A DNA stretch of 34,037 nucleotides from positions 1 to 34,037 of the IMG/VR virus record IMGVR_UViG_3300022707_000420, one strand, 5' to 3'. Of the stretch, positions 3 to 10,398 are shown piece after piece. Each line of letters begins with the position of its first letter. Positions within the stretch are counted from its first letter, which is position 1. A model generated the notes under the pieces. It saw nothing but the letters and a program-made list of their open reading frames with translations. It was not told where the DNA came from and made no database searches. The position numbers and the translations under genes were made by a program. The DNA comes from a virus.

Positions 3-119
3 GATCCGCAGTGGAACAGGGACGATGGCAAGTGGATACCATATCCAGCGACATGGCTGAATGCAGAGGGATGGCTGGATGAATACAAGGTCAAGGTACA
101 AAAAAGGATCATCACATGA
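3..119 (+). CDS. Phage replication-initiator-like protein, C-terminal fragment (5' truncated)
   Basis: The window opens inside a plus-strand reading frame that runs to a stop at 117-119, leaving 38 residues. The tail holds the motif WIPYPATWLNAEGWLDE. This resembles the C-terminal signature (phenylalanine/tryptophan-isoleucine-proline-histidine/tyrosine-proline-alanine-threonine-tryptophan-leucine-asparagine) common at the end of winged-helix phage replication proteins and of related DnaT/DnaD-like loaders. The stop overlaps the start of the helicase gene as ATGA, which indicates translational coupling and fits a loader-helicase pair. The N-terminal DNA-binding part lies outside the window, so the exact family cannot be decided here. 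Confidence 0.6.
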   Translation, partial: DPQWNRDDGKWIPYPATWLNAEGWLDEYKVKVQKRIIT

Positions 120-1078
120 ACGACAATTACGACAAGTCTGAACTCAGAAACATGATGATTGAAAGCATAGATGACCCTAGAATCAAGTCTAGGCTGACTG
201 AGGAATGGGGAAAAGAGATCATTTGTGCCTCAGATATCCACAATGAGTTATTGAAATTCATGGAGGAAGGGTTCCAGCCGGGGTTGAGTATCGGAATATC
301 GGATGAATTCGATGAATACTACACAGTCAGAAAGAAAGAATGGACCCTTGTGACCGGAATCCCCGGTGCCGGAAAGACTGAGTTCCTTGATAACGTGGTT
401 ATCAACATGATCAGACTGCACGGCTGGAAATGGGGGCTGTTCTCTGCTGAGAATCTACCGTATTCCCGGCATTTCGGCGCACTCATGGAGAAATTCCTTA
501 AGGTACCTGTAAAGGATATTGGCGAGGATAAGGATCTATTCTTCAATGCTGAGGCTGAACTCGCTAAACACATATTCTTCATAAACCCCAAGGAGGACCA
601 GCTCAATATTGACCGGATATTGTATCTGGCTGAAATTCTTATCAAAACAAGGGATATTGACGCATTAATCATAGACCCTTGGAATGAAATAGATTACATG
701 CGAAAAGCGGGGCTGAATGATACTGAGAATATATCCAGAGCACTGACCAGAATCAGGCGGTTTGCCCGGATGCACGACATTCACATATTTGTGATTGCTC
801 ACCCGACCAAGCTCAAAAAGAAGGACGATGGTACGTATCCAGTTCCAACACCCTATGATGTCGCCGGGAGTTCTCACTTCAGAAACAAAGCAGATAATTC
901 ACTTACGCTGTGGTATGACCCGGATCATCCCGGCAGCGCAAAGATATATATCCAGAAAATCAGGTTTAAAGAGGTCGGAAAACTTGGGTCCGTTGACCTG
1001 AATTATGACGTTAGGACAGGAGTATACTCACCATTTACGGTTCCAAGCATAGGGGCCATGCGAAGGGGGGATTCATGA
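116..1078 (+). CDS. Replicative helicase, RecA-like domain (T7 gp4 / DnaB C-terminal type)
   Basis: This 320-residue protein is an ATP-driven DNA helicase core. It shows a Walker A motif GIPGAGKT (residues 81-88), a Walker B segment IDALIIDPWNEID (181-193), a sensor-like strand IFVIAHPTK (224-232) and a late basic motif KIRFKEVG typical of the hexameric helicase C-terminal domain. The phrases DPWNE, AHPTK and YDVAGSSHF match the Twinkle/T7 gp4-like helicases of phages. No primase or TOPRIM domain is present: the first 70 residues only form a linker, and a separate primase is not seen in the window. It follows the initiator-like gene by an ATGA overlap and overlaps the next gene in the same way. 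The assignment as a helicase is firm; a pure ATPase role cannot be excluded. Confidence 0.88.
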   Translation: MNDNYDKSELRNMMIESIDDPRIKSRLTEEWGKEIICASDIHNELLKFMEEGFQPGLSIGISDEFDEYYTVRKKEWTLVTGIPGAGKTEFLDNVVINMIRLHGWKWGLFSAENLPYSRHFGALMEKFLKVPVKDIGEDKDLFFNAEAELAKHIFFINPKEDQLNIDRILYLAEILIKTRDIDALIIDPWNEIDYMRKAGLNDTENISRALTRIRRFARMHDIHIFVIAHPTKLKKKDDGTYPVPTPYDVAGSSHFRNKADNSLTLWYDPDHPGSAKIYIQKIRFKEVGKLGSVDLNYDVRTGVYSPFTVPSIGAMRRGDS

Positions 1079-1719: not shown

Positions 1720-1926
1720 AGAGCAACCTCAGACCTCTCAGGGCAGGGTATAGGGATGTTGACATAGGAGATTTGAATCAATTATGGCGGGCGTGACGTA
1801 TACGATAATACGTGCGAAACTGTGCGGGGGTGGTTCCTCGTTAGACAAGTATGCCAGTCCTGCTCACAGTGCTGTCGGGACTGCCACCCGCCTATTTAAA
1901 AGCCCAATAGGGCAGAAAGGAGTCAC
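1720..1926 (+). promoter_or_regulatory. Untranslated, structured leader upstream of the recombinase-like gene
   Basis: These 207 bases hold no credible plus-strand gene and are the longest gap in the left module. Several complementary segments follow one another. ACGTAT (1796-1801) pairs with ATACGT (1808-1813). GCGGG(GG)TGG (1824-1833) pairs with CCACCCGC (1884-1891), giving eight pairs with a two-base bulge. AGTCCT (1856-1861) pairs with GGGACT (1877-1882) inside that. GCCC(AATA)GGGC (1902-1913) sits directly before the ribosome binding site AGAAAGGAG. A TTGACA box is at 1759-1764 with only a weak -10 (TATGGC after 18 bases). The pairing is seen; a regulatory or RNA role is inference. Confidence 0.45.
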
Positions 1927-2838
1927 ATGAATCAAGCATTGGTAGAAGTAGGCGATCAGCCTATGGCTGTGCAGCAAATAAGGGAGCAGGTCAACCTCAT
2001 TCAGCATGTGTTGAAAGAGGTCATGCAGGATGGTCAGCACTTTGGGACTATCCCCGGTTGTGGGGATAAGCCGACCCTGCTGAAGCCGGGGGCTGAGAAG
2101 ATTCTCATGACCTTCAGGATAGCCGCAGAGCCAGAAGTTGAGGTTATCGAGTTGGGTGAAGGCCATAGGGAATATCGGGTAAGTACCCGCCTTACAAGCA
2201 TAAATTCCGGTACATTCTTGGGTAAAGGGGTAGGCACATGCTCTACCACTGAATCCAAGTGGAAATACCGGACTCAGGCTACAGACCGGGAAGTCCCAAA
2301 GGCATACTGGAAGTCCAGAGACAAGGAACTCTTGGGCGGTTCTCAGTATTCCACCAAGAAAGTGGACGGTAAATGGATGGTCTGTGAGAAGATTGAGCAT
2401 GACAATCCTGCCGATTACTGGAATACGTGCCTGAAAATGGGTAAAAAGCGTAGTCTGGTGGATGGAGTATTAACCGTTACCGCTGCCTCAGATATATTCA
2501 CCCAAGATTTAGAGGATTTGTCTGCTAATGGAGTGGTGAATGGTGGAGCAAAAGAGGCAAAGCCAGCAGCAGCCCCGGCAGAGGAAGAAAAGGTTGCAAA
2601 GCCAGCCGCAAAGTCGTCCACAACCATCAGCGAGTTGCAGAGAAAGCGTATGTTCGCCATCGCAAAGCGTAGAAACGGTACGGATGACGAGAAGGCAACG
2701 GCATGGTCTGATGATGAAATAAAGGCGTATTTGAAGGATATATGGGATATAGATAGCTCTAACGATATCAAAAAGGAAATTTATGAGGAAGTCTGTACTT
2801 TCATCAATACTCACACCGCAGACGGAAATAAAATTTGA
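1927..2838 (+). CDS. Candidate single-strand annealing / recombination protein
   Basis: This 303-residue protein belongs to a family widespread in phages, recognisable from DGQHFGTIPGCGDKPTLLKPG (residues 35-55), GHREYRV (79-85), GVGTCSTTESKW (101-112) and a helical block WNTCLKMGKKRSLVDGVL (165-182) ending in DIFTQDLED. After an Ala/Pro/Lys-rich linker (208-232) comes a C-terminal helical domain, ISELQRKRMFAIAKRR to EEVCTFIN. A comparable tail occurs on several phage annealing proteins. The next gene is a RecB/Cas4-like nuclease, the usual partner of an annealing protein. Function is therefore inferred from context and overall pattern; it could be another ssDNA-interacting factor. Its 3' end overlaps the nuclease gene by 56 bases. 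Confidence 0.6.
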   Translation: MNQALVEVGDQPMAVQQIREQVNLIQHVLKEVMQDGQHFGTIPGCGDKPTLLKPGAEKILMTFRIAAEPEVEVIELGEGHREYRVSTRLTSINSGTFLGKGVGTCSTTESKWKYRTQATDREVPKAYWKSRDKELLGGSQYSTKKVDGKWMVCEKIEHDNPADYWNTCLKMGKKRSLVDGVLTVTAASDIFTQDLEDLSANGVVNGGAKEAKPAAAPAEEEKVAKPAAKSSTTISELQRKRMFAIAKRRNGTDDEKATAWSDDEIKAYLKDIWDIDSSNDIKKEIYEEVCTFINTHTADGNKI

Positions 2839-3391
2839 TCCAGAGCATCACATTTACATGGTTGGCGGCAAGGTAATCAAGTCCGTTAATCAAATTCTGG
2901 ATCTGGCCGGATTGCAGCCGATGTTCGTCAAGCCCGATAAGTTAGCAAGGGCTGGCGATCTAGGCACAAACATCCATTTAGCCACTCAATTGTATGACAT
3001 GGGTGATCTGGATGAAAACAGTCTTGACCCGGATATATACCTTCAGGTACAGGCGTATAAGAAGTTCAGAAGTGATACGCATGTCAGGATATATCCAGAG
3101 GCGATAGAGTGCATGGTCTATAACCGGATGTATGGGTTCTGTGGTACGTTTGACCGGATTATAAAGATCAATGGCAAGTTCGGGCTTCTGGATATTAAAT
3201 CCGGTCAGCTTGCGAAATGGACCGGGCTGCAACTCGCGGCCTATGTCGAATGTCTGAGGCGCAGGATAGCAAGGTACGCCATTCAGTTGAAACCGAATGG
3301 CACGTATAACCTGAAGGAATACACAGACCCGCAGGATATCAATGTGTTTCTTTCAGCTTTAACTGTTGTTAATTGGAAGGGGGAAAATTGA
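2783..3391 (+). CDS. PD-(D/E)XK nuclease (RecB/Cas4/YqaJ-like)
   Basis: This is a 202-residue exonuclease candidate. Seen in order are FDPEHHIYMVGGK (18-30), a GTNIH motif (61-65) for the conserved His, an acidic residue in PEAIE (105-109), GTFDRI (121-126) with the catalytic Asp, DIKSG (137-141) as the D-x-K core, and QLAAY (150-154) for motif IV. This order fits RecB-like nucleases that resect DNA ends. The start at 2783 is chosen because AAGGAA precedes it and the conserved FDPEHH segment lies before the next usable ATG; this forces the 56-base overlap with the upstream gene. Together with that gene it probably forms an exonuclease/annealing pair for recombination or concatemer formation. 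Confidence 0.82.
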   Translation: MRKSVLSSILTPQTEIKFDPEHHIYMVGGKVIKSVNQILDLAGLQPMFVKPDKLARAGDLGTNIHLATQLYDMGDLDENSLDPDIYLQVQAYKKFRSDTHVRIYPEAIECMVYNRMYGFCGTFDRIIKINGKFGLLDIKSGQLAKWTGLQLAAYVECLRRRIARYAIQLKPNGTYNLKEYTDPQDINVFLSALTVVNWKGEN

Positions 3392-3651
3392 AACTATCTC
3401 GGAAGAAATGTAGGACATGCAAAAAGAACATAAGAGAATCATATTGGTTGCCTATAACTATATTTGTATACGGTAAAGAGACAAAGCACTGGTATTTTTG
3501 TTGTTGGAAATGTGTCATAAGGAAAATTAAAAAATTCAAAGGAGCAGCAGAGTGTCCGACTATTCATTTACCAGCAGTGGATTTTGATTGTAAAAGAGCA
3601 GGATGTGGAGCAAAAGACTTTTTCGATTTATTTAAAAAGAAAGGGAAATAG
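3388..3651 (+). CDS. Small zinc-binding protein (87 aa)
   Basis: A TTG at 3388 overlaps the nuclease stop as TTGA and follows GGAAGGGGGAAAA, so it is preferred over an in-frame TTG at 3373. The protein is very basic and has cysteine pairs CRTC, CCWKC and CKRAGC plus a single Cys between them, which suggests two zinc knuckles. No named family is recognised. The gene is richer in A and T than its neighbours, visible in runs of AAA, ATT and TTT codons, which may mark a recent acquisition. A nucleic-acid-binding role is plausible but not shown. Confidence 0.6.
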   Translation: MKLSRKKCRTCKKNIRESYWLPITIFVYGKETKHWYFCCWKCVIRKIKKFKGAAECPTIHLPAVDFDCKRAGCGAKDFFDLFKKKGK

Positions 3652-3654
3652 CTC

Positions 3655-4260
3655 ATGGAAGTAAACACACTAGCAGTAGACGAGAAGACCGTAGCACTGT
3701 ATCACGATGCACAGCAGATCGTTGTCACGGATAACGATGGGTATAACAATGCGGGTGAGTTCTTAAAGCAGATTAAGACTCTGGAAAAAGAGGTTGAGGC
3801 TACATTTGCCCCGGTTATTGCAGCAGCCGTTAATGCTCACCGGGAATCATTGGTTGCAAAGAGAAAGCATCTTGAACCCTTGCAGGATGCAGAGAAGATC
3901 GTTAAGGATACCATGAATGTGTATTACAGGGACCAACAGAGGTTGAAGGCCATAGAGGAAGCCAAGATCCGTAAGGAAGCCTTACGGCAGGAAAAGCTAA
4001 GACAAGAAGCAGAGAAAAAGAATAAGCCAGTGCCAGTGTTCAAGCCTGCCCCTGTTGTACAGACTGAAACCCCGGCTGTCAAGGGTGTGTCTCACAAGTC
4101 TAATTGGATGTTTGAGATCACAAATGCGAAGATCATTCCACGGGAATACCTTACGCCCGACACGGTGAAGATTGGGAAGATCGCCAGAGCATTAAAGTCT
4201 GAAGCACACATCAAAGGCGTGAGGATTTGGGAAGAAAAGACAATGGCTGTGAGGGGGTGA
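3655..4260 (+). CDS. Conserved phage coiled-coil protein of recombination regions
   Basis: This 201-residue protein matches a common phage family of unknown function. An N-terminal part reads VALYHDAQQIVVTDNDGYNNAGEFLKQIK. A long charged coiled coil follows (about residues 42-125, KAIEEAKIRKEALRQEKLRQ and on), then a Pro/Val linker. The C-terminal domain has WMFEITNAKIIPREYL and ends GVRIWEEKTMAVRG. Relatives usually lie beside annealing-protein and RusA genes, as here, so a role in DNA recombination or nuclease control is inferred. The ATG at 3655 is three bases after the previous stop, so translation is probably coupled. Confidence 0.72.
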   Translation: MEVNTLAVDEKTVALYHDAQQIVVTDNDGYNNAGEFLKQIKTLEKEVEATFAPVIAAAVNAHRESLVAKRKHLEPLQDAEKIVKDTMNVYYRDQQRLKAIEEAKIRKEALRQEKLRQEAEKKNKPVPVFKPAPVVQTETPAVKGVSHKSNWMFEITNAKIIPREYLTPDTVKIGKIARALKSEAHIKGVRIWEEKTMAVRG

Positions 4261-4973: not shown

Positions 4974-5375
4974 GTGGAAATACAGTTCACAATACCAATG
5001 ATACCAGTTGCAAAAGGTAGACCAAGGTTCAGGATGATCAAGAATAAGTTTGCGATTGCATACACGCCGAAGAAAACGAAGGATGCCGAAGATCAGATCA
5101 GGCGGTTGGCTATGCCGTATAAGCCAAAATCAATCATCGTTGATCCAATCCATTTGGTACTGTCATTCTGGATGCCCGTACCGAAGGGAACATCGAAGAA
5201 AAAACGATATTCTATGCGGTTTCATTCCAAACGTCCAGACCTTGATAATCTTGAGAAATTAATTATGGATGCTTTGACGGGTACATTCTGGAAGGACGAC
5301 AGTTTGATTTGGAGTAAAAAAACTGTGAAGATGTATTCAGACAATCCCGGCATATTGGTAGATATTTGTTATTAA
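4974..5375 (+). CDS. rusA: RusA-type Holliday junction resolvase
   Basis: This 133-residue endonuclease starts at a GTG after a strong AAAGGAGG site. The RusA family resolves four-way DNA junctions as a dimer with Mg2+. The characteristic elements are all present: a short N-terminal strand with IPMIPVAKGRPRF (residues 7-19), KRPDLDNLEK (86-95) with the catalytic Asp pair, D99 in MDAL, and the DD pair at 108-109 in FWKDDS. Its length is close to the usual 120-140. It is the last gene of the plus-strand replication/recombination module and faces the minus-strand operon, with only three bases between the two stop codons. Confidence 0.92.
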   Translation: MEIQFTIPMIPVAKGRPRFRMIKNKFAIAYTPKKTKDAEDQIRRLAMPYKPKSIIVDPIHLVLSFWMPVPKGTSKKKRYSMRFHSKRPDLDNLEKLIMDALTGTFWKDDSLIWSKKTVKMYSDNPGILVDICY

Positions 5376-6545: not shown

Positions 6546-8357
6546 TTACGGATGAACTGGTTGATGAATGCCCTCATGAATATCCTTTTGGACATCCAAG
6601 TGTATTCCCATTACGTCAACACACGTTGCAGCATCGGTTATGGTCCCAATTATCGTCCCGGCAGTAACGGTGCTTCCGGTCACTCTGGTAAGCATTGCGC
6701 TTGGATCAATTGTAAGCACATCATCAATTGTCAAATCAAATCCATCGGTACACCATTGACCGTTATTGCCTGTCATGTCCCTGCCAGTATCATTCGTGAC
6801 ATTCGTTGTCTGCGCGATAATTCCACCAGTTTTATCCCATACGAGTTCGCACGAAAGCGTCCCTGCATTCTGCGTGAACGTCTGATCGCTAGGTCCAGCC
6901 ATTTTCAATGTCAGGTTGGCACCACCAAACGCATCAGTGGTACTCATTGAGAAATTGCCCTCAACGGTTAAAGTGAAAGCAGAAGACGGATCGGTGAATA
7001 TTCCATTGGTCCTTGTAAAATCTCCCAGTATGGTTACATCACTTCCAATGGTAAATGTTGCCAATACCTGTGGTTTGTTGACAACGATATTTCCCTCGAA
7101 AACCTGAGATGTTTGGAATAGCGTTGTGTCATCGGCTGAACCTGATCCAACAAATGCAATGGTAATTCCAGTTGTATCAAATGTTCCGTCATCCGTGAAA
7201 TCCATATCCATAGACATAGTGGTTCCACTATAGGTAATTGTGGCCCCGGCATTGTTTGCAAGTCCACAATCAATCATAATCCAATCACTACCGGAATGAG
7301 TAATTGTTCCGTTATTGGTAAAAGTCGCAGCACCTACAGAATTTATAGTCCACGTTCCAGAAGGTATCAGTATTGTCCCGTTGTTGATGAATGCATTTCC
7401 TATGGTTGACGAAGGACCTGCGGCTAAACTTATGGTGGTCCCGGAGGCGATTGTCACGCTTGCACCAGTACCCGTCTTACTAATAATTACTGTTGCCGCC
7501 AACACTCCGGGGTTTGTGATAACGACATCATCATTGGTTCCACCTCCGTCAAACGTGATTGTTATTCCGGAAGTATCGAATGTCCCGTTTTGAAGGAATG
7601 CTCTTTCTACGGACATTGTTGGACCGCTATAATTAATGGTAGCTCCAACCTTATTATCTATTCCGCTGTTATTCATATCCCACCCATCGCCCGAATGGGT
7701 AATGGTGCCATTATTAACCAGAGTCCCGCCAGAAGTGCCAGTGCCAGCGTGCGTCCATGTTCCAGACGATACCAATATCGTACCGTCGTTCGTAAATGCA
7801 CCAAGGATAGTAGTAGAAGGGCTGGCTCCCAAACTGATTGTTGTACCGGAAGCAACGGCAAAGGATGTTGCACCTGTTTTATTCATGTCTACAGTTCCGG
7901 GGACCGTACCGGAAAACGTGACAGTAGTTGAGTCATCACCACCGCCTCCGTCAAATATGATCGTATTGGAGTTATTGAATGTTCCGCCGGAGACATCGAA
8001 GTTTCTTTCGATGTTCATGTCTCCGCTTGAGTTTGTGAACGTGCCTCCGGTCTGGTTGAAGTCTCCATTATTAATATCAATATTGGAATCACCACCTGCG
8101 AAAGTTCCCCCTGCCTGTACGAAATCAGAGGAATTAATTGTTATGGTGCGAGTAGAATTTTGTGTTATCGTGCCAGAGTATGTAGATTCAATATTTATAC
8201 CTTGCCAATCTATATTTTCATCAATAGCGCAATCGGCTGTGCTTGTGGAATTGAAGGTACCTATATCACCAGATCCCGGCTTGGTATCACCAACCCAATT
8301 AAGATCATCGCTGACAATGTTAGTGCCATTTCCGTTATCAAATACAATGACAGCCAT
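6546..8357 (-). CDS. Repeat-rich beta-structured fibre/adhesin protein (603 aa)
   Basis: The protein is dominated by Gly, Thr, Ser, Asn and Ile in short strand-turn units (GTITQNSTRTITINSS, GTFTNSSGDMNIERN), typical of a right-handed beta-helix or autotransporter-like passenger. N-terminal units of about 21 residues (QAGGTF, QTGGTF, VSGGTF) are followed by repeats of about 133 residues starting at residues 123, 257 and 389, the last incomplete. The C-terminus is His-rich, DVQKDIHEGIHQPVHP. It probably forms a host-binding spike or fibre at the late end of the operon. The start follows GGGAGAG and overlaps the previous stop (TAATG). An enzymatic (depolymerase) activity cannot be seen or excluded. 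Confidence 0.68.
   Translation of the reverse strand: MAVIVFDNGNGTNIVSDDLNWVGDTKPGSGDIGTFNSTSTADCAIDENIDWQGINIESTYSGTITQNSTRTITINSSDFVQAGGTFAGGDSNIDINNGDFNQTGGTFTNSSGDMNIERNFDVSGGTFNNSNTIIFDGGGGDDSTTVTFSGTVPGTVDMNKTGATSFAVASGTTISLGASPSTTILGAFTNDGTILVSSGTWTHAGTGTSGGTLVNNGTITHSGDGWDMNNSGIDNKVGATINYSGPTMSVERAFLQNGTFDTSGITITFDGGGTNDDVVITNPGVLAATVIISKTGTGASVTIASGTTISLAAGPSSTIGNAFINNGTILIPSGTWTINSVGAATFTNNGTITHSGSDWIMIDCGLANNAGATITYSGTTMSMDMDFTDDGTFDTTGITIAFVGSGSADDTTLFQTSQVFEGNIVVNKPQVLATFTIGSDVTILGDFTRTNGIFTDPSSAFTLTVEGNFSMSTTDAFGGANLTLKMAGPSDQTFTQNAGTLSCELVWDKTGGIIAQTTNVTNDTGRDMTGNNGQWCTDGFDLTIDDVLTIDPSAMLTRVTGSTVTAGTIIGTITDAATCVDVMGIHLDVQKDIHEGIHQPVHP
7194..7991 (-). repeat. Two tandem repeats of about 400 bases inside the fibre gene
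   Basis: Residues 123-256 (7590-7991) and 257-388 (7194-7589) of the fibre protein align throughout. Both carry GTF, IxFDGGG, ASGTTISL, FxNxGTI, SGTW, NNGTITHSG, GATIxYSG and TMS in the same order. A third copy begins at 7193 with GTFDTTGITIAF and decays after about 40 residues. DNA identity is only partial, so the duplication is old or the copies are diverging. Confidence 0.65.
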
Positions 8358-8686
8358 TATAAATCTCTCCCTGCTTTTATAATATTCACCACATCAACAT
8401 ACTTGTCGACTGTTTCTACCCATGTGTGGAAACACCATTTATTGCCCACATACTTTTTATGGAATGCGTCTGTTCTGTCACCATTAATAGCAATCTCATA
8501 GATGGCGGGATCTCCATTTTTATCAGGACCATGATCAATGCCGCTGTAATACGCATGGACAATTAACTTCCTTTCAACTTTGTCGTTATGGATATATGTG
8601 CCAATAGTCCGGTCGGATTCCTTATTATCGGCCAGAAATTCCTCTTTGGTTGCAATCTGCCCATCCATTTTGTATAGCTTGCTCAT
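8357..8686 (-). CDS. Hypothetical protein between the two fibre genes (109 aa)
   Basis: The start overlaps the upstream fibre stop (ATGA) and its own stop overlaps the next start (TAATG), so it is translated in line with both fibre genes. The protein is soluble and looks compact: KMDGQIATKEEFLADNKE, then strands KVERKLIVHAYYSG and AIYEIAINGD, then a C-terminal helical part. There are no cysteine pairs or membrane segments and no family I recognise. Its position suggests a fibre-associated protein such as a chaperone or linker; this is inference. Confidence 0.6.
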   Translation of the reverse strand: MSKLYKMDGQIATKEEFLADNKESDRTIGTYIHNDKVERKLIVHAYYSGIDHGPDKNGDPAIYEIAINGDRTDAFHKKYVGNKWCFHTWVETVDKYVDVVNIIKAGRDL

Positions 8687-10398
8687 GCGTTCACTGGTAA
8701 ATGAAATGCTGATTGATGTATGTCCTGATGTACGTCACGGATGATCCTTGTGAATGCTGATCCGAAATTCCAGTTTGTATTGTTCTGTGCGGCACCAACT
8801 GAACCAACCGCCGAAACCTCAAGTCCTCCGCTGGCATCACTGTCCTGAACATCCACAAGATCAGCAAGCGTAGATGTGCCATTCAGCACAAGTGACCATT
8901 CAGTACCCGGTGTAGTTGATCTCAAGACAGATGGTGTTGCACTACTGGCTGCATTGCTTGACAAAGTGCCATTCACGGTGAGCGTTGCGGTGTCTGTCAC
9001 ATTATGAGTCTTGTCATCCCCCAACTCAAGATTGCCATAGGTGCTTGTGATGTTATCCATCACAGCGGCCACACCGCTGCTATAAAACTCCACGATTGAT
9101 GCATCATCAACTGATTCAGAGCCGCTTACCGTGACAGTCTCGTCACCTTTGGCTTTCAGCCTTGTTCCTGATGCCTTTGTGAATACATCTGCTACATTTA
9201 AATCCTGACCATTGAGATCAAGGATGCCATTCGTGAATGTCAAATCCTGACCCGTTCCGTCAAGAATTAGATTTTGTAGGAGTTGGAGTTCACCAGATGC
9301 TTTATTAATCGTAATAGTGCCATCCGTGAACCTGCCCAACCCCGTATTTGTTGTGATCGTTTGTGTGACTGTCCCGTTAATCAGAATGGCCGTGGTTCCC
9401 TGCCAGTTACCGGAACCGATATCTATGTTACCTTGCAGTTCAATCGTTCCACCATTCCACGCCCTCGCGTTTGTAACAGTAAGTTTGCCAGTGACAATAA
9501 TAGTCCCGGTTAAAGTACGCGTCCCTGTCTGCAAAATCTTCAGTTCCTTAATGGTATTCTCTGCACCGAAGTCAATCGTGTGGGTATCCGTGATCCCTCT
9601 AAAATCAAGGATGTTTCCAGCAGAATACACAACTGTACCACTGGTATATAACCATCCACCACCGATACGAACCTCATCACTGATGGTCAGAGTGCCACTG
9701 CAAGCAACCTCAATGTTTCCAGAGAATCCAATGATGCCCGTTGAACTTATTGTCTGGTCCGTACCGCCGAACTTGAATATACCAGTCTGACCACCACCGG
9801 ATGTAGATCCACCAGTGCCAACGACATTGCCCCTAATATCCATCGTGCCACTGACAAATCTAGTAAATATATTAATGTTTACATTTCCCTCAACGATGAC
9901 CGTACCCACAACCGTCATTAATCCACCGCCCGATGTGGAGAAGAAGAAATCATTCAGGTTATCATTTTGCAAATCAATGGTTTGGTTGCTTCCATCCGTT
10001 CTAAACTCACCATTGTTGTGTGCGAATGTTCCTCCCAATACCTTGAAGTTCACCCAAGTAATAAGGGTGCCAGATGTGCCCGTGACTGCACCGCCATTCT
10101 GCGTGTATGATCCTGAGAAGGTAGCAGTGTTGGTTCCCATCGTCAGAGTGCCAGCATCAATCACTGCATTGCCAGCCCTTACAATGGCTGTCTTGGTTGC
10201 ATAATCCAGTGTCCCTGCCCATCCTGTTTCTAGCTTCAGGCCAGATACATCACTGTTGACCTCAAGTGTGCAATTCCCTGAGTTGGTATCGAATCGTGCG
10301 ACATCAACGCTTGTCGGCACAGACGCACCACCAGCACCGCCAGATGACGTTGACCAGTATTGGACATCGTTCCAATTAGTTCCTGAGTCGCCTGTCAC
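8683..10398 (-). CDS. Second repeat-rich beta-structured fibre/adhesin protein (571+ aa)
   Basis: It is another Gly/Thr/Ser/Asn-rich beta-helix-type protein, with GSYTQNGGAVTGTSG and GNVVGTGGSTSGGGQ, and a C-terminal block DVQDSDASGG through NNTNWNFG. That block is a closing module I recognise from metagenomic adhesin-like proteins. The N-terminus YWSTSSGGAGGASVPTSVD also fits that group. The C-terminal tail DVHQDIHQSAFHLPVNA resembles that of the other fibre. The only standard start in this frame near the beginning is GTG at 10398, which has no ribosome binding site. Conserved-looking residues SDRFR continue upstream to an ATC at 10414-10416, which does have one. The gene may therefore begin at 10416. 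Confidence 0.68.
   Translation of the reverse strand: MTGDSGTNWNDVQYWSTSSGGAGGASVPTSVDVARFDTNSGNCTLEVNSDVSGLKLETGWAGTLDYATKTAIVRAGNAVIDAGTLTMGTNTATFSGSYTQNGGAVTGTSGTLITWVNFKVLGGTFAHNNGEFRTDGSNQTIDLQNDNLNDFFFSTSGGGLMTVVGTVIVEGNVNINIFTRFVSGTMDIRGNVVGTGGSTSGGGQTGIFKFGGTDQTISSTGIIGFSGNIEVACSGTLTISDEVRIGGGWLYTSGTVVYSAGNILDFRGITDTHTIDFGAENTIKELKILQTGTRTLTGTIIVTGKLTVTNARAWNGGTIELQGNIDIGSGNWQGTTAILINGTVTQTITTNTGLGRFTDGTITINKASGELQLLQNLILDGTGQDLTFTNGILDLNGQDLNVADVFTKASGTRLKAKGDETVTVSGSESVDDASIVEFYSSGVAAVMDNITSTYGNLELGDDKTHNVTDTATLTVNGTLSSNAASSATPSVLRSTTPGTEWSLVLNGTSTLADLVDVQDSDASGGLEVSAVGSVGAAQNNTNWNFGSAFTRIIRDVHQDIHQSAFHLPVNA

Follow-up and report, generated by a model that had tools for sequence, protein, structure and literature searches.

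Modules in which an annealing protein is combined with an exonuclease are known, and lambda Red (bet-exo-gam) and RecET are among the closest described systems to the phage locus analysed here. Seven families of annealing proteins are named in PMC8093625, where genes for YqaJ, DUF1351, Gam/Gp157 and SSB are described as neighbours of known single-strand annealing protein (SSAP) genes. For the Rad52 superfamily (RAD52, Mgm101, Sak, Red-beta/RecT), the residues K206, R210, N211 and S214 on alpha-3 of LiRecT have been matched to T148, K152, R153 and R156 of RAD52 (PMC9772228), and 3,143 unannotated proteins have been reported to have Rad52-like folds (PMC11783212). The mitochondrial nuclease MGME1 is described as preferring ssDNA, which it cuts in both directions, and as acting also on flaps, duplex and 5′-overhang DNA (PMC6237815).

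The locus presented here resembles lambda Red and RecET in that a candidate annealing gene overlaps an exonuclease gene and in that Gam-like and SSB genes are found nearby in relatives. It differs from them as its annealer is not Bet/RecT by Pfam and its nuclease is of the MGME1 type and not of the YqaJ/lambda Exo type. From the genes, predicted folds, residue conservation, gene order and exchange with ERF and RecT, all of which were computed here, we consider it very probable that the protein encoded at 1927–2838 is a Rad52-fold SSAP of a distinct, apparently undescribed family, which would be part of a phage recombination module. The predicted core fold, the alpha-3 spacing and the phage recombination context are like those of the Rad52 superfamily, whereas the protein has motifs of its own and shows no sequence similarity that could be detected with the four family profiles tested.

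Gene layout of the locus

The window, i.e., the whole stretch of 34,037 bases that was analysed, comprises positions 1 to 34,037 of the IMG/VR virus record IMGVR_UViG_3300022707_000420. It contains genes of a tailed phage (head-tail adaptor, major head protein, terminase, tail and internal virion proteins), and its left end encodes a helicase domain, a 303-aa ORF, a nuclease, an accessory protein and RusA:

116–1078, plus strand: DnaB/T7-gp4-type helicase domain (phrog_239, DnaB_C)
1915–1922, plus strand: Shine-Dalgarno-like GAAAGGAG before the ATG at 1927
1927–2838, plus strand: candidate single-strand annealing protein, PHROG 10048 (303 aa, ATG)
2434–2451, plus strand: codons 170–175 (K170, K174, R175) on helix 161–185, proposed equivalent of T148/K152/R153 on alpha-3 of RAD52
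2773–2777, plus strand: Shine-Dalgarno-like AAGGA within the annealing gene, 5′ of the nuclease ATG at 2783
2783–3391, plus strand: PD-(D/E)XK exonuclease of the MGME1/RecB type (202 aa, ATG), catalytic motifs intact
3655–4260, plus strand: accessory protein phrog_10477 (201 aa), weak Gp157/Gam-like similarity
4974–5375, plus strand: RusA Holliday-junction resolvase, GTG start (Pfam E 4e-32)

A preliminary description of this DNA had placed the start of the nuclease gene 56 bases inside the annealing gene and RusA 1.6 kb further on. Both ORFs are indeed in place, their overlap is exactly 56 bases (2783–2838), and RusA starts 1.58 kb after the end of the nuclease gene. A chance overlap of two ORFs was rejected as homologues exist for both. 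The only other in-frame start of the nuclease after 2783 and before 2900 is at 2858; it was also rejected, because it would remove residues 16–25, which are already aligned in relatives, and the gene thus likely starts at 2783. The two genes are probably translated in a coupled manner.

Between the nuclease and the accessory gene, positions 3373–3651 encode a 92-aa protein with two CxxC pairs and a weak DUF7576 match, the ORF call of which begins at TTG. Beside the tail genes, two long minus-strand ORFs (6546–8357 and 8683–10398) are repetitive and rich in Gly, Thr and Asn, a composition likely to be that of fibre or beta-helix proteins. A scan for promoters and terminators gave no clear excess over shuffled sequence, and a tRNA scan found no tRNA.

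Gene neighbourhood across the family

The 303-aa protein matches PHROG 10048 (E 2e-53), to which PHROG assigns no function, and the relatives of this family that were found by tblastn in 15 phage and four plasmid records are all labelled ‘hypothetical protein’. A profile search with a 15-sequence alignment yielded relatives in at least 568 of 599 viral-contig stretches and in 331 of 443 genome-contig stretches, and the best 80 of the at least 568 viral and the best 80 of the 331 genome-contig relatives were retained as survey loci. The 176 loci were reduced to 154 representatives at 85% identity; for structure prediction, 136 of 141 eligible representatives (five were removed because of their length) were aligned together with the window protein, resulting in 137 rows. 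Some relatives lie on contigs that binning assigns to Thermoplasmata and Nanoarchaeota (L149 and L151 on one contig, JAHFTW010000006.1, and L152), where a binning error is possible; the two loci of JAHFTW010000006.1 are about 57 kb apart and have identical match statistics.

Neighbouring genes were searched with profiles of two exonuclease families and were counted as adjacent when located within 250 bp of the end of the annealing gene. An exonuclease was adjacent in 60 of the 154 representatives (window included), compared with matches to the nuclease families in six of 1390 other plus-strand ORFs (at least 100 aa) from the same loci, a background that is somewhat underestimated since the comparison ORFs are mechanical. 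Another 13 representatives contained the exonuclease elsewhere in the locus, and 81 contained neither nuclease family, five of them having less than 400 bp downstream. The annealer–exonuclease pair proposed in the preliminary description is therefore borne out by the adjacency, yet it is a common and not a universal feature of the family. In loci without a recognised nuclease, the neighbours were mixed replication genes (among 138 of 199 ORFs).

In 50 of the 60 adjacent pairs the nuclease start coincides with or precedes the end of the annealing gene, with 18 of these 50 showing an offset of -3, which equals a 4-base overlap. The adjacent partners fall into two nuclease groups, phrog_298/466 and YqaJ/lambda-Exo, and the YqaJ group is of the lambda-Exo type (LHK-Exo 7e-70, lambda Exo 9e-36). 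Among 131 downstream genes, the PHROG labels, the counts of which overlap, included phrog_298 (35), phrog_466 (25), phrog_149 (22) and phrog_434 (22), while Pfam matches were obtained to YqaJ (21), PDDEXK_1 (7) and DUF1351 (6). Upstream genes were mixed and included Gam-like (7 of 116) and SSB genes (4 of 116); Gam-like, SSB and DUF1351 genes recur as neighbours of the PHROG 10048 family, the Gam-like and SSB genes being separate from it. Relatives of the accessory protein (3655–4260 in the window) accounted for 70 ORF matches in the 176 loci. PHROG labels phrog_10477 as ‘exonuclease’, but the family matches Gp157 and Mu Gam, both weakly, and this label may derive from its neighbours.

The partner nuclease

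The nuclease of the window contains H65 (motif Ia), the acidic residues E109 and D124, D137-x-K139 and Q150-L-x-x-Y154, and thereby has motifs Ia, I–III and IV as described for MGME1 (PMC6237815). G61, H65, E109, D124, K139 and Q150 are invariant in all 40 aligned nuclease relatives, and D137 and Y154 are kept in 88% of them. An AlphaFold2 model of the nuclease (mean pLDDT 94.8) was matched by VIA-align to human mitochondrial MGME1 with Z 17.1 (2.1 Å over 161 residues), followed by weaker fold matches to RecE (Z 11.4), Cas4 (11.2) and lambda Exo (8.9). Searching the PDB with the nuclease profile gave MGME1 (8.9e-13), DNA2 (1.2e-4) and Cas4 (0.08), and RecE and lambda Exo were not found at E 1 or less. 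By profile as well as by fold, MGME1 is the closest solved structure. In Pfam the nuclease matches PDDEXK_1 only, and not YqaJ/lambda Exo (PF09588). Unlike MGME1, it is phage-encoded and paired with a candidate annealing protein, and it is known here from sequence and model.

The nuclease had previously been called RecB/Cas4-like. The assignment to PD-(D/E)XK enzymes holds, with MGME1/RecB as the type, whereas Cas4 identity was rejected, as the cas4 profile (E 0.073) misses its cut-off and both profile and fold favour MGME1. Cysteines that bind an Fe-S cluster are a feature of the Cas4 family; no cysteine is among the invariant columns of the 40 nucleases.

With an MGME1-type nuclease and the substrate range of MGME1, Red-type resection and trimming of flaps are both possible. 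One alternative to a Red-like order of events is accordingly that strands are annealed first and trimmed afterwards. The nuclease would then be a bidirectional, ssDNA-preferring enzyme that removes flaps and ends and not a processive 5′-to-3′ duplex resector like lambda Exo, and single strands would be provided by replication and by the DnaB/T7-gp4-type helicase. The better match to MGME1 than to RecE, Cas4 or lambda Exo, the preference of MGME1 for ssDNA and its cutting in both directions (PMC6237815), and the helicase domain at 116–1078 all agree with this order. However, a true lambda-Exo/YqaJ homologue fills the same slot in other members, which suggests that a resecting partner is acceptable; the substrates of MGME1 also include duplex and 5′-overhang DNA (PMC6237815), and a substrate preference is not readable from a fold. 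We therefore regard annealing before trimming as a serious alternative, though not as the favoured one.

The helicase is presumably Twinkle-like. It is conceivable, if rather improbable, that the combination of a Rad52/Mgm101-like annealer, an MGME1-type nuclease and this helicase is the phage equivalent of the MGME1–Mgm101–Twinkle set for genome maintenance in mitochondria, perhaps even related to the origin of that set, and that it acts by annealing and subsequent trimming instead of Red-type resection.

Sequence relationships of the candidate annealing protein

As had been stated for the window protein, obvious signatures of RecT, Bet or ERF are absent: none of the 137 aligned members matches Pfam RecT/Red-beta (PF03837), ERF (PF04404), Rad52/Rad22 (PF04098) or Sak3/DUF1071 (which we take to be PF06378) at E 0.01. 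The 137 members share invariant residues, and the family has its own conserved motifs, HYGxIPG...LLKPGAEK and SDIFTQDxED. Compared by sequence with the PDB, the 1927–2838 protein gave one chance match (E 0.68), the 137-row profile found no match in the PDB, and the NCBIfam search of the protein was likewise without a match. A Rad52 scan of the viral contigs found none.

The profile-profile comparison that the preliminary description had recommended did not reveal a significant link to ERF, Sak3, RecT or Rad52. Using hhalign, the core reached probabilities of 5.2–5.3 with ERF (18 sequences), 0.4–0.5 with Sak3 (26), 0.1 with RecT (26) and 0.7 with Rad52 (6), while 17 control clusters reached 1.3 at most. 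Pairs of known SSAP families scored 0.1–3.0, except for rad52–sak3 at 70. As the known families mostly miss each other too, the test has little power with these small profiles, and our claim is therefore limited to a shared fold and role, the family being separate by the present profiles.

These comparisons also bear on the idea that the 1927–2838 protein is a divergent member of RecT, ERF or Rad52 and not of a separate family. A viral homologue, A0A8S5UDN7, is already named ‘RecT family protein’, and the profile of the small C-terminal domain picks up L423, an ERF protein, in its final search round. Set against this are the lack of any match to the four Pfam families among the 137 members and the hhalign probabilities of 0.1–5.3 to the four families versus 70 for rad52–sak3, so that membership in a known family appears unlikely to us.

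The partner of LHK-Exo (Laribacter) is, we assume, the protein called ‘LHK-Bet’. Whether or not LHK-Bet belongs to the PHROG 10048 family, either of which may be the case, is a real gap in the claim of novelty. This claim is further limited as modules of annealer and exonuclease are known and as one homologue already bears the RecT name. No description of PHROG 10048 as an annealing family was recognised in the literature searched; its members may sit unnamed in the set of unannotated proteins with Rad52-like folds reported in PMC11783212.

Predicted fold and putative DNA-contacting residues

The AlphaFold2 model of the candidate annealing protein (137 sequences) has a mean pLDDT of 81.6 overall and of 84–98 per 10-residue block over residues 11–190. 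It predicts a Rad52-like core (residues ~10–195), a low-confidence linker and a small helical C-terminal domain (~236–296) of moderate confidence. Within the model, a helix, a hairpin region, a second helix, three long strands, further strands and the long helix 161–185 follow each other, an order that resembles the order of secondary-structure elements in Rad52.

In a Foldseek search against the PDB the top 15 chains were all RAD52 (best E 2.6e-3, probability 0.99), with no match at E 0.001 or better. VIA-align also placed RAD52 first (Z 9.2, 4.6 Å over 125 residues), followed by Mgm101 (7.1), 80alpha Sak (6.4), Gp77 (5.2) and Red-beta (4.6); unrelated ribosomal and dsRBD chains reached up to Z 7.0, approximately 2 below RAD52, and structures absent from these results were not counted as evidence. 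In the BFVD, the first match was A0A8S5UDN7 (30% identical), and the names at lower ranks included RecT, ERF, Rad52, SAK3 and annealing protein. The comparison with Rad52-superfamily folds that had been proposed thus led to RAD52 as the best PDB match and not to an unrelated fold. Based on the model, the assignment to a Rad52-type fold is good, although not overwhelming by itself.

On helix 161–185, the positions 170, 174 and 175 are basic in 137 of 137 alignment rows, and the 15-sequence alignment likewise has basic residues at all three positions in 15 of 15 sequences. The i, i+4, i+5 spacing of K170, K174 and R175 equals that of K206/R210/N211 in LiRecT and T148/K152/R153 in RAD52 (PMC9772228). 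We propose that these three residues are the equivalent of the DNA-contacting residues on alpha-3 of RAD52, a correspondence drawn from spacing and helix and not from a computed superposition.

Exchange with ERF and RecT beside the nuclease

A reciprocal search anchored on the nuclease (7-sequence alignment) yielded 30 viral loci, three of which (L486, L491 and L492) lie on contigs already covered by the first survey. The gene beside the nuclease belonged to the PHROG 10048 family in nine loci, to ERF in six and to RecT in five, and was unrecognised in ten. These counts indicate that the PHROG 10048 family, ERF and RecT replace each other in one slot. Members of the PHROG 10048 family were located upstream of the nuclease in eight of nine loci and downstream in L496, where the order is reversed (2501–3795, nuclease followed by the annealing-family gene, overlap of 19 bases). 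RecT genes were separated from the nuclease by 4 to 402 bp (five loci). The nucleases of L508, L509 and L510 are identical by 5-residue words. In L504 (512–1633) and L505 (1362–2483) a phrog_3657 protein is encoded immediately before a nuclease of the same family, and it may represent one more family of annealing proteins; L495 (1497–2423) contains another unlabelled occupant of the slot.

ERF (PF04404) not only takes the same place beside the same nuclease family, in one set of related contigs it also replaces the core. L498 and L501 encode a divergent PHROG 10048 member (E 1e-22 and 6e-24, match split in two pieces), and L508 encodes an ERF protein (E 2e-37). The DNA of L498 and L508 aligns in two flanking blocks, with 78.3% identity over 443 columns (938–1373 with 1029–1467) and 83.1% identity over 1062 columns (2105–3161 with 2117–3161). 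Between these blocks no DNA alignment was found at E 1e-5, and the unaligned gap holds most of the core matches (approximately L498 1619–2206 and L508 1503–2126). Both loci share the C-terminal part and the nuclease, and the whole-protein blastp alignment that bridges the gap (45% over 461 columns) is put down to the shared ends. Hence, a PHROG 10048 core has been swapped for an ERF core of different sequence between homologous flanking DNA, in front of the same nuclease. K170 and K174 are kept in L498, and R175 reads S.

A Gam-like or SSB-like accessory protein with a structural or DNA-end-binding role, which has by convergence the beta-sheet and helix arrangement of Rad52 and dsRBDs and does not anneal, would fit the modest VIA margin over unrelated chains and the missing sequence link to SSAPs, but is very unlikely given that Gam-like and SSB genes adjoin the annealing gene separately, that ERF and RecT take the place of the protein in one slot and an ERF core replaces its own core in one case, and that its basic residues fit the alpha-3 pattern of SSAPs. 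The earlier suggestion of a less described single-strand annealing family is instead supported by the RAD52-like predicted fold, the survey of adjacent exonucleases and the slot that the family shares with ERF and RecT beside the same nuclease family.

Proposed function and relevance

As a Rad52-fold SSAP, the 1927–2838 protein would act independently of RecA and oligomerise on single-stranded phage DNA. One strand would be held in a basic groove bordered by the helix carrying K170, K174 and R175; a complementary strand would then pair with it, and the annealed duplex would be released. The exonuclease encoded by the overlapping gene may expose single strands at breaks or replication ends or may trim flaps after annealing, and RusA would resolve the resulting branches. 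Annealer and nuclease may contact each other, and the module may serve in replication as well as in recombination.

In the Desulfuromonadia, the class of a Geobacter genome, the PHROG 10048 family occurs in 17 of 195 genomes (three of the 17 being the centre genome and two preselected carriers), compared with RecT in 24, ERF in two and Rad52 in one. In the class of a Pseudoxanthomonas genome it was found in 3 of 143 genomes, one match being split, compared with ERF in four (three over the cut-off), RecT in four and Rad52 in none. Both prevalences have a small bias since the centre genomes were picked because they carry the family.

If the assignment is true, phage recombination annotation and the choice of recombineering enzymes would gain one more annealing-protein family. 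The swap between the ERF core and the new core represents a natural test of their equivalence, and the MGME1-type partner directs attention to the way in which nucleases of this kind cooperate with annealing proteins.
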